Shown: positions 9,408-14,837 of the stretch, piece by piece
Numbering within the stretch: position 1 is the first letter of the stretch
Layout of the letters: the number at the start of each line of letters is the position of its first letter
NCBI GenBank assembly: GCA_024958715.1
Contig: JANWUS010000086.1
Span: 1-46,047, forward strand
Length of the DNA stretch: 46,047 nt
From: Cyanobium sp. FGCU52
GTDB taxonomy: Bacteria; Cyanobacteriota; Cyanobacteriia; PCC-6307; Cyanobiaceae
Direction of reading: 5' to 3'
Program-made: the position numbers and the translations under genes
Notes under the pieces: generated by a model
What the model saw: the letters and a program-made list of their open reading frames with translations, nothing else
Database searches by the model: none
Told to the model about the DNA's origin: nothing

Positions 9408-10312
9408 GCCTGCTCAGCCGTGGTGCCTTCCCAAGGGGGTCGGGCGCAGCTGTGCGGTGGATGGTGCTTTTGGAAAGAACTGATCGTCAGATCAGGGTGT
9501 CTTTGGTTGTGGGGCGGAGCTGCCGGCGCTGGCACCTGGGGCCAGGTGTCTATGGGGACGTTCCGTTGGGTCCGGGGCACCTGGGGCGGTGCAATGGACG
9601 GCACGGCTGTTCTCATGACAGCAGCGACGCGCCAGGAACGCCAGGGATCCGTTGAGAGTGTTGGAGCAGGGGCCGGATCGTCAGTGCACTCCTGATGTGT
9701 GCTCCGGGGGGGTGTCTTCCATTCGTGGAGCCTCCGAAGGTCGATGCAGACACGATGGGCCGGCCCACTGGGGCCCGCAACGGCCGCAGGGGATTCGACA
9801 CTGCTCTTCACCGGGGGCAACGGAGCTTCATGAAGGGGGCTTCACGGTTGTGGGTCTCGGTTCCTCGCTGCTGAAAGGTCCAAGGGGCTTGGCGCAGGGA
9901 GCGGCCGGATCGTCGCTGCTCGGGGAAATCCACTGACTCGCTCAGTGTCCAGCAAGGTTGTTCTCAGTGGTTTGCTTCCAAGAGTCCACCTCCACGCGAT
10001 GCGATGGTTGAACGGGCGGTGATAGCAACAGCGCCGCTTGCGCGGCGCCTGCTTCCCAGAACCGTCCGCCAGGAGCTGCGGGCAGTTCGACAGCATTTTG
10101 ACCCTGTGCATAGAGCAGTTGACACAGGCTTTGGGATCACCACAGCTTCACAGGCTCTGTTTCATGATGTCTCGCCAGGTTGCGAGCCTGTTTCCAGCCT
10201 TTTCAGTCTGTGCGCCTTTGTGCACATCACTTGTCGGCAGGGTGTGGCCGTTCTCAAGATGGAGGCAGGAGAAAGCGAAGGGTTCGTTGCAGCCCTACCG
10301 AGGGAAGAATCT
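9408..10312. other. Gene-free stretch of about 0.9 kb
   Basis: No frame on either strand has protein-like composition, and open frames here are GC artefacts. A continuous plus frame from 10004 runs into the AraC-type gene, but its first ~100 residues look non-coding. The stretch could hold an untranslated leader, a small RNA or further decayed genes. I see no repeats or clear promoter elements. Confidence 0.5.
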
Positions 10313-10762
10313 ATGGAAAGCGATGCTAGGCCGGAACAGGTCATTGAGCTTTGCCCCCTGAGGTGCGGGAACCCACTGCAGCTTGTGAGCGAGGCGCTTC
10401 AGTATTTCAAAGTCCACTACCGCCAACCGATTGAGATTCCAGACTTGGCACGTGGTCTGGGAACAAATGTGCGAGAACTGGATCTCAGCTTTGAGCAGAT
10501 CCGCGGGGTCACCGCACTGCGGGCGCTGCAGGAGCACCGACTGAACAAACTGTTTGCGACGCTTACAGATCAACCTCGCCAGGGTCTGGGCCGGGCGATC
10601 CGTGCCTGCGGACTTGGTCAGACGGAGGGAGTGCTCGCCCTGTTTGAAAGGGAATTCGGGATCGACATGCCCCTGTTTCTGCTCACCTGCCGGCGGGCTG
10701 CTGAAGACCGCCTGTTTCGCCTGCACCACCCGGAGGCGGAAGCGCTGATTCTGCCGATCTGA
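10313..10762 (+). CDS. AraC-type transcriptional regulator (DNA-binding part)
   Basis: About 149 residues, essentially an AraC/XylS two-helix-turn-helix domain: a first HTH around IEIPDLARGLGTNVRELDLS, the linker helix ALRALQEHRLNKLFATL, and a second HTH around GLGRAIRACGLGQTEGVLAL followed by FEREFGIDMP. No sensor domain is present in front, so the protein is short for the family. I chose the ATG at 10313 because a GAGG sits about 8 bases upstream and the conserved region starts soon after. An in-frame ATG at 10259 and longer extensions are possible. It may control the nearby photoprotection cassette, but nothing in the sequence proves it. Confidence 0.65.
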   Translation: MESDARPEQVIELCPLRCGNPLQLVSEALQYFKVHYRQPIEIPDLARGLGTNVRELDLSFEQIRGVTALRALQEHRLNKLFATLTDQPRQGLGRAIRACGLGQTEGVLALFEREFGIDMPLFLLTCRRAAEDRLFRLHHPEAEALILPI

Positions 10763-10860
10763 GCCCGCCAGGGGGGACGAAAGGACCTGAACCGATCGCC
10801 GAGATCAGAGGGGCAGCCGCCCCTACAGGAGTTCCATCACGCCTGCTCCAGCCTGCGGCT

Positions 10861-11076
10861 GGCTTTCCCATCCCCGACACCCTGGCCGCCCACCTCGGCG
10901 TCTCCCTCTCCACCATCTCCAGCTGGAACTCCAGCGACTGCTGCCCGGCATTGGTGAAGCTGGGCAACCTGGTCCGCTGCACCTGCGAGGACGTGGAGCT
11001 GTGGCTGGTGGCCCATGCGGGAAACCGCCATGACCCAGCCGCTTCATGTGGCGTTACAGTTCTCGTAACGAACTGA
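10861..11076 (+). pseudogene. Relic of a small excisionase-like HTH protein
   Basis: In one plus frame the translation runs IPDTLAAHLGVSLSTISSWN, then LVKLGNLVRCTCEDVELWLV and ends at 11074. This resembles small AlpA/excisionase-like HTH proteins (HTH, then a wing with VKLGxxVR...EDVExWL). No ATG, GTG or TTG opens the frame before the HTH, and Cys residues replace the usual Arg/Trp positions of the wing. It is therefore probably decayed. The frame ends 8 bases before the first Hli gene. Confidence 0.4.
11052..11070. promoter_or_regulatory. Inverted repeat upstream of the first hli gene
   Basis: Arms CGTTAC and GTAACG (6 of 6 paired, 7-base centre) lie 14 bases before the Hli start codon. It could be an operator or an mRNA hairpin in the leader. 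No clear -35/-10 pair is associated. Confidence 0.35.
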
Positions 11077-11083
11077 AACACTC

Positions 11084-11227
11084 ATGGCTGATCCCGCTCC
11101 CCGCTTCGGGTTTGTCGAATTCGCCGAGACCTGGAACGGCCGCATGGCCATGCTCGGCTTCGTGATCGGCCTCGCCACCGAGCTGCTCACCGGCCAGCGC
11201 ATCCTCCAGCAGATCGGGCTCGGTTGA
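11084..11227 (+). CDS. hli: High-light-inducible protein (Hli/Scp)
   Basis: A 47-residue single-helix chlorophyll a/b-binding-like protein. The core ETWNGRMAMLGFVIGLATEL contains the E-x-x-N/H-x-R-x-A-M-x-G signature that binds chlorophyll in thylakoid membranes. Hli proteins protect photosystem II assembly intermediates and quench excess energy under stress. It heads a run of four very small plus-strand genes ending at a terminator at 11730-11753. The annotation as Hli is firm; its expression conditions are inference. Confidence 0.9.
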   Translation: MADPAPRFGFVEFAETWNGRMAMLGFVIGLATELLTGQRILQQIGLG

Positions 11228-11232
11228 TCGCC

Positions 11233-11351
11233 ATGAGCACCGACGACTCCGCGCCATCGCTGCCGTCGTCGCCCTGGTGGTGCTGCTCACCGGCATGACC
11301 GCCTTCGTTCTCAGTCGCACCAACGACCTCGCCCCCCTCAACAACCCATGA
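11233..11351 (+). pseudogene. Small single-helix membrane protein gene with an apparent frameshift
   Basis: ATG at 11233 (STDDSAP...) is in one phase and stops after 21 codons. From about 11252 a different phase gives a clear membrane helix, RAIAAVVALVVLLTGMTAFV, followed by LSRTNDLAPLNNP and a TGA at 11349-11351. A one-base shift near 11250 would join them into a ~40-residue protein with a short polar N-terminus, one transmembrane helix and an ATGA overlap with the next microgene. The consistent layout suggests either a sequencing error or a very recent mutation in a real gene. Confidence 0.5.
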
Positions 11352-11431
11352 ATACCGGCACCCTCGCGCTCGCCTTCTTTGCTGCCTGGCTGGCTCTTGC
11401 CCTGCTCCAGCCGAGCCGCGCTGCTGACTGA
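11348..11431 (+). CDS. 27-residue membrane or secreted microprotein
   Basis: A very short gene whose ATG overlaps the preceding TGA as ATGA. The product is a hydrophobic helix, LALAFFAAWLALALLQP, with a short polar end (SRAAD). It could be a single-span thylakoid or plasma-membrane peptide resembling the tiny subunits of photosystem or cytochrome complexes. I recognise no family. Support comes from gene order, start-stop coupling and the coherent hydrophobic profile. Confidence 0.5.
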   Translation: MNTGTLALAFFAAWLALALLQPSRAAD

Positions 11432-11466
11432 CACGGTTTCAACCCTCCATCCCACTGAGGACCCCC

Positions 11467-11703
11467 ATGACCAACACCCCTGCTGACAACCAGTGGCTCC
11501 AGCACCGCGCCGAGGAGCTGATCCACATGGAGCAGCTCAAGCGCGCTGAACTGTTCAACGGCCGCGCCGCCATGCTCGGGATCGTGATCGGCATCGTGGT
11601 GGAAGGGCTCACCGGCTTCGGCATCGCCCACCAGATCGGCCTCGGCGCCCTGGTGGATGGCTATGCCGCCTGCCGCACCCAGTTCCTGCCCTTCTGCTTC
11701 TGA
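11467..11703 (+). CDS. Second Hli-type chlorophyll-binding-like protein
   Basis: A 78-residue protein with the Hli signature in ELFNGRAAMLGIVIGIVVEG, preceded by a polar N-terminal helix (LQHRAEELIHMEQLKRA). After the helix it carries an unusual tail, YAACRTQFLPFCF, with two cysteines and several aromatics. Family members bind chlorophyll and carotenoid in the thylakoid. It lies 35 bases after the microprotein gene and is followed by a strong terminator, so it is probably the last gene of the cassette. Confidence 0.88.
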   Translation: MTNTPADNQWLQHRAEELIHMEQLKRAELFNGRAAMLGIVIGIVVEGLTGFGIAHQIGLGALVDGYAACRTQFLPFCF

Positions 11704-11729
11704 GCCCCTGCGAGGCTCACCCGCCCATC

Positions 11730-11753
11730 CCCCCGGCAACCCCGGGGGTTTTT
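11730..11753 (+). terminator. Rho-independent terminator of the hli cassette
   Basis: A 7-base stem, CCCCCGG and CCGGGGG, with a 5-base loop is followed by five T. Confidence 0.85.
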
Positions 11754-11780
11754 GATGGCCATCGCTGCATCTCCGTTTCC

Positions 11781-12005
11781 ATGACCGGCAACCTCCAGGC
11801 CATCGGCTTCCTGTTCACCTGGGTGCTGGGCTGGGGCATCGGCGGCTCGCTCATCGATGCCGGCCTGATCAACGCCGGCGTGTATTCGCTGGAGGGCGGC
11901 CAACTGGGCACCGCCGCCACGTTCATCCTGTGGAGTCTGCTCTGGGGAGGCGGCGGGGTCTGGCTCTACCGGCGCTGGACGCGGCCCGTCACCCCGGACC
12001 GTTGA
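11781..12005 (+). CDS. Small membrane protein
   Basis: A 74-residue protein with two hydrophobic segments, AIGFLFTWVLGWGIGGSLID and TAATFILWSLLWGGGGVWLY, separated by a polar turn and ending in a basic tail (RRWTRPVTPDR). I do not recognise the family. It lies 27 bases after the cassette terminator on the same strand and may be part of the same photoprotection neighbourhood. Its 3' end overlaps a convergent small gene by 17 bases. Confidence 0.65.
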   Translation: MTGNLQAIGFLFTWVLGWGIGGSLIDAGLINAGVYSLEGGQLGTAATFILWSLLWGGGGVWLYRRWTRPVTPDR

Positions 12006-12225
12006 TTCGCTGCGGCCGCTTGGCCGTATCGATCAGCAGGTTGTGCATCAGCTCATTGCTGCTGACCAGCAGATGGGCCATCCAGCTGCCCGTCACCCTG
12101 GGTTCCGCCACCGCATCACCGTGGCAACGGGCCATCGCCTGCTCGATCTCCATCACCTCGCGGCCGATGTTGCGGATCATCGCCTCGGTACTCTCGCGGG
12201 GCGTAGGCCGGGGCGGTATCTGCAT
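11989..12225 (-). CDS. Small hypothetical protein
   Basis: A 78-residue frame with a coherent helical body: EAMIRNIGREVMEIEQAMAR, then SWMAHLLVSSNELMHNLLID. The residue mix is normal for a soluble protein and not the Arg/Pro/Ala-rich mix of antisense artefacts. Two in-frame ATGs exist, residue 1 and the start of MIRNIG. Family not recognised. It converges with the small membrane protein gene at 11781-12005 and overlaps it slightly. Confidence 0.5.
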   Translation of the reverse strand: MQIPPRPTPRESTEAMIRNIGREVMEIEQAMARCHGDAVAEPRVTGSWMAHLLVSSNELMHNLLIDTAKRPQRINGPG

Positions 12226-12302
12226 CGGCTCACCTCACACCCCCAGGTGGGCCAGATCGTTCCATGCCACGGCGATCTGGACGCAGCTGTCAAGGCCTTG
12301 GC

Positions 12303-12323
12303 AGCTCCGCCAAGGGCGGAGCT
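12303..12323 (+). promoter_or_regulatory. Perfect hairpin overlapping the ribosome-binding site of the PAS-GGDEF gene
   Basis: Arms AGCTCCGCC and GGCGGAGCT (9 of 9 paired, 3-base loop) have no T-run. The GGAG in the right arm (12318-12321) is the only Shine-Dalgarno-like sequence at proper spacing (8 bases) from the ATG at 12330. The hairpin would hide it, suggesting translational control if that start is right. Confidence 0.45.
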
Positions 12324-12329
12324 GAACTG

Positions 12330-14837
12330 ATGGGTGGTGGTTGGGATCGGCGGAGGGGTGAAGCGAAGCGGGTGATCCGGGCAGGATCAGCTGGATCTGC
12401 CCACACTGAACTCACTCTCTGGCTGAGCGTGGGTCAACGCCCTGCACATCCATCCCACGCAGCTGCCGGGAACCGTCGCCAACGGCTGCTCCTGCATCTG
12501 GCGATGGTCGGGCTGTTCCTGCTTGATCTGGCGCTTCCTCGCAACATCTCGCTGCTGCCCTACTACTTCCTGGTGGTGGTGCTCTCGGCGAGCTTCGCCA
12601 CACCACGCCAGATGGTTCCGTTGATCCTGCAGGCCTATGGGCTGGCGATCGTTTCGGGGCTGTACTGGGGCTTCCTCCCATCGATCGACTACGCCACCCG
12701 CCTGCTGGCACTCACCGGCGTGTCCGCTATGGCGGTGTGGCTCTCGAACCAGCGTTGCCGGGAAACGGCCCTGCGGCGCCGCAGCGAGCAGACCCTGAAT
12801 CTCACGCTCGATTACGCCGCTGCAGGAGAGGTTCTTGGGGATGCCAGCGGCCGGCTGATCCGCGTGAATGCTGCCTTCTGCGCCATGCTCGGCCGCGATG
12901 AGGAGACCGTGCTCCAGCTCTACTGGCCTGAGATCACCCATCCCGACGACCTCGCCCAGGAGCAGCCGCTGTTTGAGGAGATGCAGGCGAATCGGCGCGA
13001 CAGCTACCGACTCAGGAAGCGGTATCGGCGCGGCGATGGCAGCACCATCTGGGTCGACCTGAGTGTGTCGTGTGCGCGTGGCCCTGACGGGCGCCCGGAG
13101 TTCTTCATTGGCCAGGCCATCGACATCACCGCCCAGGTGGCGGCTCAGGCAGCCCTGGCGACGTCTGAGGAAACGCTGCGCCGCACCCTGGATCAATGCA
13201 ACACGGGCCTGGCGCTGTGCGCTCCGGGCACGGGGACCATCCTGCAGGCCAACACGCAACTCTGCTCCGAACTCAGCTGGACCCCGGCGGCGCTGTTGGG
13301 CAGGAGCCTGATTGAGGCTGTCGGTGACCTGGAGCAGGTGTCGGCTGAGGATGCAGACGTGCTCACCCCGATGGATCACGCCCCGCTGGAGTCCCTGCTG
13401 CGTGGCGAGATCGATGGTTACGGCGTGCGGGTGAGGCTGCAGCGGGCGGGATGCCCGATCGGCTGGGGTGATCTGCAGCTCAGCAACCTCCGGGATGCCG
13501 GCGGTGCCGTGATCAATGTGCTTCTGGAGCTCAGCGACATCACCGATGTCGTGGCCCAGACGGAGTACCTCCAGACCGCTGCCGCCTCGGGGGTGGTGGG
13601 GATCTGGGACTGGGATCCGGTGAACGACGTGCTGACCTGGGATTCGGTGATGTACCAGCTCTACGGCGTGCAGCCTGAGCAGTTCTCCGGTGCCGTGGAA
13701 GCCTGGGCGCGGACCGTGCATCCCGACGACCGGCCCTTCGCTGAGGGCGAACTGCAGGCGGCCGTGCGCGGTGAGCGGGAGTACGCCATCCGTTTCCGGG
13801 TGCTGTGGCCCGATGGATCCGTGCGTTTCATCCAGGCCGCGTCGCGCCGGTTCTTCGATGCCGAAGGCCGGGTCGTGCGCATCCTCGGGGTGAACTACGA
13901 CGTGACGGAGCTGGTGCAGCCCCAGCAGCGGCTGCAGGCCGAACAGCAGCGGCTGAGCACCACCCTCGACTCCCTGTTGGATCCCCACCTGCTGCTCGGG
14001 CCGGTGCGCGATGAGGCCGGCGCGATCGTGGATCTACGCATTCTGCGGGGCAACCCCGCCGCCGCTGCCTACAACCGCATGTCCATGGAGGACTTCACGG
14101 GAGCCACGATGCGGCAGTTCTGGCCAGGGCACTTCCGCAATGGACTGTTCGATCGGTTTGTGCAGGTGCTGACCAGCGGCGAGCCTCTGATACTCGACGA
14201 CTTCTGCTACGACCAGCATGAGAGATTGCACTGCACGCGATACCTGGATATGCGCGTGGTGAAGGTGGGTGAGGAGCTGAGCGTCACCTGGCGCGATGTG
14301 ACGGAGCGCATCATTCTGGAGCAGGCCCTGCAACAGCGGGCCGCCACCGACAGCCTCACCACCCTGCTGAACCGTGAGGAGATGTTCACGCAGATGGAAC
14401 GGGTCCTGGCCGGTGACCGGCGCCGGGGCGGGGAGCTGGCGGTGCTCTTCTGCGACCTGGATCACTTCAAGGAGGTGAACGACAGCTACGGCCACTAGGC
14501 CGGCGATGCGGTGCTGCAGACCATGGCGACCCGGATCCGCTCCTGCCTGCGCACGTCCGACCTGGCCGCACGCATCGGCGGCGATGAACTGATGGTGGTG
14601 CTGCCTGGGGTGCAGGGCATGGACGATGCCGTCACCATCGCTGAGAAGCTGCGCCGCCTGGCCAGCGAACCGGTGCCGATCCCTGAGGGGCAGGTGCAGA
14701 TCAGCATCAGTGTGGGCGTCGCCCTGGCCTGTACCGGTGAATCGCTGGACGAGCTGATCGCCCGGGCCGACACGGCGATGTACACCGCCAAGCAGCAGGG
14801 CCGCGATCAGGTTGTGGCGATCAGCTCAACGGGCTGA
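12330..14837 (+). pseudogene. Membrane PAS-GGDEF diguanylate cyclase interrupted by an in-frame TAG
   Basis: A ~835-codon gene with a single stop, TAG at 14496-14498, inside the GGDEF domain. Order: about three or four hydrophobic helices (~55-140; for example LAMVGLFLLDLAL and PYYFLVVVLSASFA), then four PAS-type sensor domains (~150-260, ~275-390, ~410-520, ~540-660), then GGDEF from about 665. The break falls right after NDSYGH. The same frame then continues perfectly with AGDAVLQTMATRIRS, the active-site motif RIGGDEL, and SISVGVA to a normal stop. The paralogue at 27429-31091 has an Asp codon at the equivalent place. The truncated product would keep all sensors but lack cyclase activity. 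Start chosen at 12330; 12264 is also open. Confidence 0.85.

Follow-up and report, generated by a model that had tools for sequence, protein, structure and literature searches.

These results altogether indicated that the window, that is, the whole stretch of 46,047 nucleotides from Cyanobium sp. FGCU52 that was analysed, carries a real and conserved cassette of four genes, in which two hli genes flank two genes for microproteins designated p40 and p27, and which ends at a terminator-like hairpin. The gene order, its conservation, the coding constraint, the conserved overlap between the p40 and p27 genes, the promoter element and the hairpin were all observed here. By analogy with Psb35 and Psb34, we propose that the cassette is a high-light operon producing two Hli together with p40 and p27 as non-pigment single-helix partners, a reading to which a probability of about 0.5 may be given. 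Whereas the regulation and the gene order are well supported, the function, a role in photosystem assembly or pigment handling, is what we infer from the company that these genes keep and from their regulation. The features of the locus are the following:

11043 to 11060, plus strand: HLR1-like box (putative RpaB site), a degraded copy reading TTCATGTG-GC-GTTACAGT, with 3 of 12 core positions mismatched
11084 to 11227, plus strand: hli of the short type, 47 aa (PF00504, E 1.2e-4, 23.1 bits, cut-off 22.3)
11233 to 11351, plus strand: degenerate p40 of a single-helix microprotein family (36-42 aa in the alignment), with a frameshift near 11251/11252
11348 to 11431, plus strand: p27, single-helix microprotein of 27 aa, whose start overlaps the p40 stop as ATGA (11348-11351)
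11467 to 11703, plus strand: hli of the longer type, 78 aa, kept in relatives (PF00504, E 3.3e-5, 24.9 bits, cut-off 22.3)
11730 to 11753, plus strand: intrinsic-terminator-like hairpin (11730-11748, 7 G-C pairs) followed by a T run; 1 found against 0.5 expected from shuffles
11781 to 12005, plus strand: p74, two-helix small membrane protein of 74 aa from a broad family, beyond the hairpin and loosely linked

Both outer genes encode Hli/Scp (one-helix Cab) proteins, since their scores against PF00504 (Chloroa_b-bind) exceeded the curated cut-off, which agrees with the two Hli genes recognised in the earlier note. We take the 47-aa protein to be HliC-like and the 78-aa protein to be HliA/B-like. 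The 27- and 74-residue frames proposed in the same note were likewise recovered as open frames at 11348-11431 and 11781-12005. A scan of positions 10000-13000 against Rfam gave no match up to E 1.

The earlier note had described five genes spaced like an operon, a description that holds for the first four; the 74-residue gene sits beyond the terminator-like hairpin, beginning 77 nt behind the second hli. A similar hairpin was seen by eye in all nine stretches compared between the second hli and p74, which comprised the window and eight relatives (L209 gave no stretch, and the p74 of L009 was 5′-truncated). Relatives of p74 were found in 175 of 300 genomes of the family and in 41 of 59 genera, with distant members in small genomes, and 16 of 28 hand-chosen p74 loci had no hli match within the available stretch. 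The protein was modelled by AlphaFold2 with helices at residues 2-31 and 41-67 (mean pLDDT 86.8); it matched nothing in Pfam, NCBIfam or PDB, and neither did further relatives searched against Pfam. The full order hli-p40-p27-hli-p74 was observed in several genera, including in Synechococcus sp. WH 5701, where p27 ends early (L210, the same locus as L278); a further cassette of this strain (L250) is intact. Moreover, p74 directly followed p40, with no hli between them, in three loci (L207, L208, L213), so that some link exists. Even so, p74 is better regarded as a gene next to the cassette than as part of the four-gene unit.

Other genes surround the cassette in the window. Upstream, the frame at 10004-10762 (plus strand) gave an AraC-like HTH_18 match below the cut-off (24.0 of 33.6 bits), and a small helix-turn-helix frame at 10831-11076 (plus strand; PF07022, 22.2 bits, cut-off 22) shares sequence with the hli promoter box and stops shortly before the first hli. 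The PAS-GGDEF gene directly downstream (12264-14837, plus strand) is split inside the GGDEF domain by an in-frame TAG at 14496-14498 (...SYGH*AGDAVLQ...).

The p40 family is recognised by the pattern MxTDYxxAI...LTxMVxxVLSRPSDL, with one strongly hydrophobic stretch. Its profile matched 170 of 400 Cyanobiaceae genomes, distributed over 19 of 59 genera. Among named sequences, p40 loci were seen in Cyanobium, Synechococcus sp. WH 5701, Vulcanococcus limneticus and comparable strains. When the whole class was sampled, all 17 matching genomes, out of 291, belonged to this same family; p40 therefore looks family-restricted at this sensitivity. Some genomes presented up to five matches, divergent members counted, and from their appearance these multi-copy genomes are presumably marine Synechococcus. 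A divergent p40-like subfamily, GDYTxAIxxTIGL...VVWQFLQPNDDDFGD, was noticed in five loci (L328, L333, L337, L340, L343), and the three of its sequences that were scanned gave no family match above cut-off.

The family is constrained at the protein level. Six columns, the start methionine among them, were invariant across 19 diverse p40 sequences. The median pairwise pN/pS of p40 was 0.415 in its own frame versus 1.27 and 1.49 in the shifted frames, a clear contrast; for comparison, the median was 0.23 for p74, and the two types of hli had 0.12 and 0.23. These values are lowered by saturation and come from pairs that are not independent; they cover p40 genes starting with ATG (hence not that of the window), p27 matches below E 1e-3 and pairs of 60-97% identity. 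The small frames that the earlier note had put forward as real products thus have relatives in many genomes, tied to hli and under constraint in their own frame, and their conservation extends well beyond this strain.

The neighbourhood of p40 was analysed in 99 distinct loci, namely the p40 matches among L068-L097, L147-L186 and L247-L317, with identical stretches counted once; loci fetched through hli (L001-L037) and context loci (L207-L239) stand outside this count, and 40 loci were chosen by hand across genera, not at random, from the p40 matches listed. An hli match lay less than 60 nt upstream of p40 in 78 of the 99 loci, and in 62 of these 78 the gap between the hli stop and the p40 ATG, measured from where the hli profile match ends, was exactly 5 nt. 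Downstream of p40, p27 was found in 41 loci, hli in 75 and p74 in 14; hli occurred on at least one side in 87, and 12 loci had no hli match within the available stretch. The loci lacking p27 behind p40 (p27 in 41/99) or any hli match (12/99) count against the proposed operon reading. Nor is the tie obligate: Hli does not need p40, as 12 of 42 members of the own genus had no p40 match and two hli genes stood without p40 between them in six loci (L023, L025-L028, L036). In two genomes (L228, L229), a stand-alone p40 close to psbA was preceded, at about 30 nt, by an atypical SDR gene; in L228 these neighbours matched PF13460 and PF00124, respectively. Ycf39 was considered for this SDR, which matched PF13460 and, weakly, other epimerase models, and no claim is made.

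The second microprotein, p27, follows the pattern M(T/I)ATLxxxLFGAWLxGALLQPxxAD. Its profile matched 51 of 201 genomes at the loose threshold of E<=0.05, many of the weak matches being doubtful, and gave 25 matches in the 201 genomes at E<=1e-5. Of the latter, 22 adjoined a p40 match among the matches listed, and the remaining three, not beside a listed p40, were those of G161 and G192 and one of the two in G247. Of the 42 genomes of the own genus, 10 had a p27 match at E<=0.01, of which one was weak. Its median pN/pS was 0.53 in its own frame versus 0.76 and 2.0 in the shifted frames, so that the own frame stands out clearly from one shifted frame and modestly from the other. Searches of p27 against Pfam, NCBIfam and PDB returned no family, and there was no PF00504 match.

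The ATGA junction noted earlier is present in the window at 11348-11351, and 35 of 39 p40-p27 pairs, that of the window among them, have the same overlap of p40 stop and p27 start. Frames so short, coupled to each other and enclosed by two hli genes, could be taken to act mainly as spacers in translation, or as leader-like frames, adjusting the proportion of the two Hli, with peptides that matter little, and the kept overlap, the tolerated frameshift in the window copy and the existence of cassettes without p40 would suit this explanation. However, specific residues are kept (the six invariant columns), and p40 also stands alone, half of the time with its own promoter box, which is beyond what a spacer would need. 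We consider a mainly spacer-like role very unlikely.

With its degenerate p40, the window represents the cassette poorly. The earlier note had counted an intact gene of about 40 residues here, a claim that the frames do not bear out: the frame opened by the ATG at 11233 reaches a stop at 11296-11298, and the conserved p40 helix lies in a different frame (...AIAAVVALVVLLTGMTAFVLSRTNDLAPLNNP, stop at 11349-11351), in which the first ATG, GTG or TTG is an internal GTG at 11277. Alignment with four relatives and with a paralogue from the same genome placed one missing base near 11251/11252. Moreover, the tail motif [RQ]P[ST]DL was found in 97 of 98 distinct p40 sequences (those gathered at that stage, one further set of loci being left out), as RPSDL in 85, RPTDL in 8, QPSDL in 3 and QPTDL in 1; the window alone has RTNDL, in which the conserved proline is lost. 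The HLR1 box upstream matches at 9 of 12 positions, much of one half-site having been lost, whereas the relative L009 has a single mismatch. The single-base gap, in a draft genome of 87 contigs (3.48 Mb), might suggest that the gene is intact and that the frameshift is an assembly error. This is improbable, since separate substitutions alter the conserved motif (RTNDL, 1/98) and the HLR1 half-site is likewise degraded; frameshift, tail and promoter half-site, taken together, speak for decay of this copy and against a sequencing slip. Since p27 begins within the stop codon of p40, its output here is probably reduced by the frameshift as well. An intact p40 paralogue is encoded in the same genome on contig 38 (G000:C38:30367-30477), in an hli-p40-hli cassette without p27, and with no working p40 in the window, p40 function, if kept, would come from that copy.

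No known family accounted for p40. Searches against Pfam, NCBIfam, PHROGs and PDB found nothing above chance, PF00504 (Cab) was absent among the families listed for 14 p40 members, and the p40 and p27 profiles retrieved no photosystem chain from PDB up to E 10, their matches there being chance-level, unrelated chains (E 0.25 to 4.1). In IMG/VR, 15 pattern matches were obtained, none of them confirmed, and one p40 used as a query against phage records found none. In the open PMC literature, as covered by titles and the openings of abstracts, no publication naming the p40 or p27 family was found.

PsbN appeared among the Pfam names for 2 of the 14 p40 sequences (best E 0.022). PsbN resembles p40 in its size class, its single helix and, loosely, its N-terminus and PS-x-L tail, a similarity that is not significant. 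In a profile comparison with hhalign, the score was 21.0, which none of 200 block-shuffled controls attained, against 3 of 300 helix/tail-shuffled ones. It could thus be imagined that hli operons captured a PsbN paralogue that diverged into p40, with a role in reaction-centre assembly. However, the similarity stayed below every cut-off (25 bits for PF02468), the alignment covered the N-terminus and helix only (columns 1-26) with the PS-x-L tails out of register, and a true psbN lies elsewhere in this genome. The p40-PsbN relationship is therefore weak, and we regard such an origin as highly improbable. Second PsbN-like genes (L187-L195) were also considered as bridges between p40 and PsbN and set aside, those that were read being a different family, with many ending in ...DEHARMHELGIAH. 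The genomes with such extra PsbN-like genes would be small, Prochlorococcus-sized ones, and one of these loci (L189) also has two weak hli matches.

As for the regulation, we take the HLR1 consensus to be two (G/T)TTACA half-sites ten bases apart. It was scored in 83 regions, which are all the distinct upstream regions of short-type hli genes collected, a few of them without p40 behind. The numbers of regions whose best match had 0, 1, 2 and 3 mismatches among the 12 positions were 21, 39, 14 and 9, respectively, so that 60 of 83 had 0-1, and in 59 of the 74 regions with 0-2 mismatches the box started at -41 from the ATG. Letter shuffles never gave 0-1 mismatch and gave 2 in 0.3% of cases. In PMC6331805, which gives examples of HLR1 and RpaB and their positions in promoters, HLR1 in the core promoter of hli/scp genes is described as repressing until high light, and one scp gene has it at -42.

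HLR1 boxes also precede p40 genes that have no hli upstream. For this comparison, 41 loci were entered and 37 gave a start (L328, L333, L336 and L342 did not); after removal of 9 p40-first operons, 3 hli-p40 loci (L327, L330, L339) and 3 divergent members (L337, L340, L343), 22 stand-alone genes remained. Among these, L325 and L326, from a single genome, are near-duplicates of each other, and the stretch of L292 covers about 340 nt downstream of p40, with an hli further on being possible. Within 120 nt of the start, 11 of these 22 had a box of their own with 0-1 mismatch, the other 11 having 2 to 6 mismatches. The box was present with 0-1 mismatch in 8 of the 9 p40-first operons, and the three p40 genes behind hli and the three divergent members (ending QPNDDDFGD) had 4 or 5 mismatches. 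Four cassettes (L029, L032, L033, L034) begin with p40 behind an HLR1 of the hli type (1, 2, 1 and 1 mismatches), as if the first hli had been lost. Since p40 genes without an upstream hli carry boxes of their own, it seems that in many genomes, though not universally, p40 is a member of the light-stress regulon independently of hli, and the presence of HLR1 before most of the related operons and half of the stand-alone p40 genes fits a light-stress role.

The same evidence bears on the main rival explanation, in which p40 would act like SliP4/HliR1 of Synechocystis, bridging NDH-1 and the photosystems for cyclic electron flow, and would share with Hli its regulation only. SliP4 is described in PMC5126843 and PMC12850537 as a predicted transmembrane protein of 37 aa, induced by high light, RpaB-controlled and, in the latter, NDH1-linked; p40 has the same size class, one helix and an HLR1 box, and both its stand-alone genes with an HLR1 of their own and the hli pairs without p40 would be expected of such a protein. 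On the other hand, the SliP4/HliR1 gene lies upstream of sodB, outside an hli operon, and the HliR1 termini, MSNLIAVAF... and ...KTSLNLPE, translated from the primers published in PMC5126843, lack the p40 signature, with neither the DY at the start nor the RPSDL at the end, in a comparison by eye of the termini only. In addition, PMC5126843 reports no HliR1/SliP4 homologues outside Synechocystis, and the tight 5-nt spacing of hli and p40 argues for a closer link of p40 to Hli. A SliP4-like bridging role is thus rather unlikely, and with it as the main rival, the odds for a Hli-partner role of p40 and p27 are about even.

By company and regulation, the nearest working models for p40 and p27 would be Psb35, Psb34 and SliP4. 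Psb35 (Ssl2148 of Synechocystis 6803) is, according to PMC9145668, a small membrane protein associated with HliA/B that has a stabilising effect on the CP47 module; however, it is described there as a one-helix/HLIP homologue, whereas p40 and p27 have no Cab match, a comparison made by description. Psb34 (Ssl1498/Tsl0063), as presented in PMC9458560, is small, lacks a Cab domain and governs Hli binding to CP47 complexes; unlike p40, which starts with MxTDYxxAI, its N-terminus is HliA/B-like. Members of the Hli/Scp family itself are the two outer genes of the cassette, whereas p40 and p27 are not.

In the scheme proposed here, control by RpaB, translation, location in the membrane and all functional steps are presumed. 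Under low light, RpaB would sit on the HLR1 box over the core promoter. Under high light, RpaB would leave, and one short mRNA would yield the short Hli, p40, p27 and the longer Hli, with p27 translated by stop-start coupling at the ATGA and the transcript ending at the terminator-like hairpin behind the longer hli. Lacking the Cab chlorophyll motif, p40 and p27 are most likely non-pigment helices, and they would most likely pair with or stabilise Hli on photosystem II assembly modules. Conserved gene order alone is no proof of a joint complex.

A more specific version of this proposal would regard p40 as a Cyanobiaceae-specific, RpaB-controlled family, with several copies in marine-Synechococcus-like genomes, that serves as the non-pigment partner of Hli and forms, together with p27, a Hli complex of four helices on intermediates of photosystem II assembly; this is tentative and on the unlikely side. 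If true, p40 and p27 would be the alpha-cyanobacterial answer to Psb35/SliP4. PMC5126843 reports Norf1 as missing from marine picocyanobacteria and Norf4 as missing from alpha-cyanobacteria. Two conserved microprotein families linked to both hli and HLR1 are candidates for Hli management in abundant picocyanobacteria.
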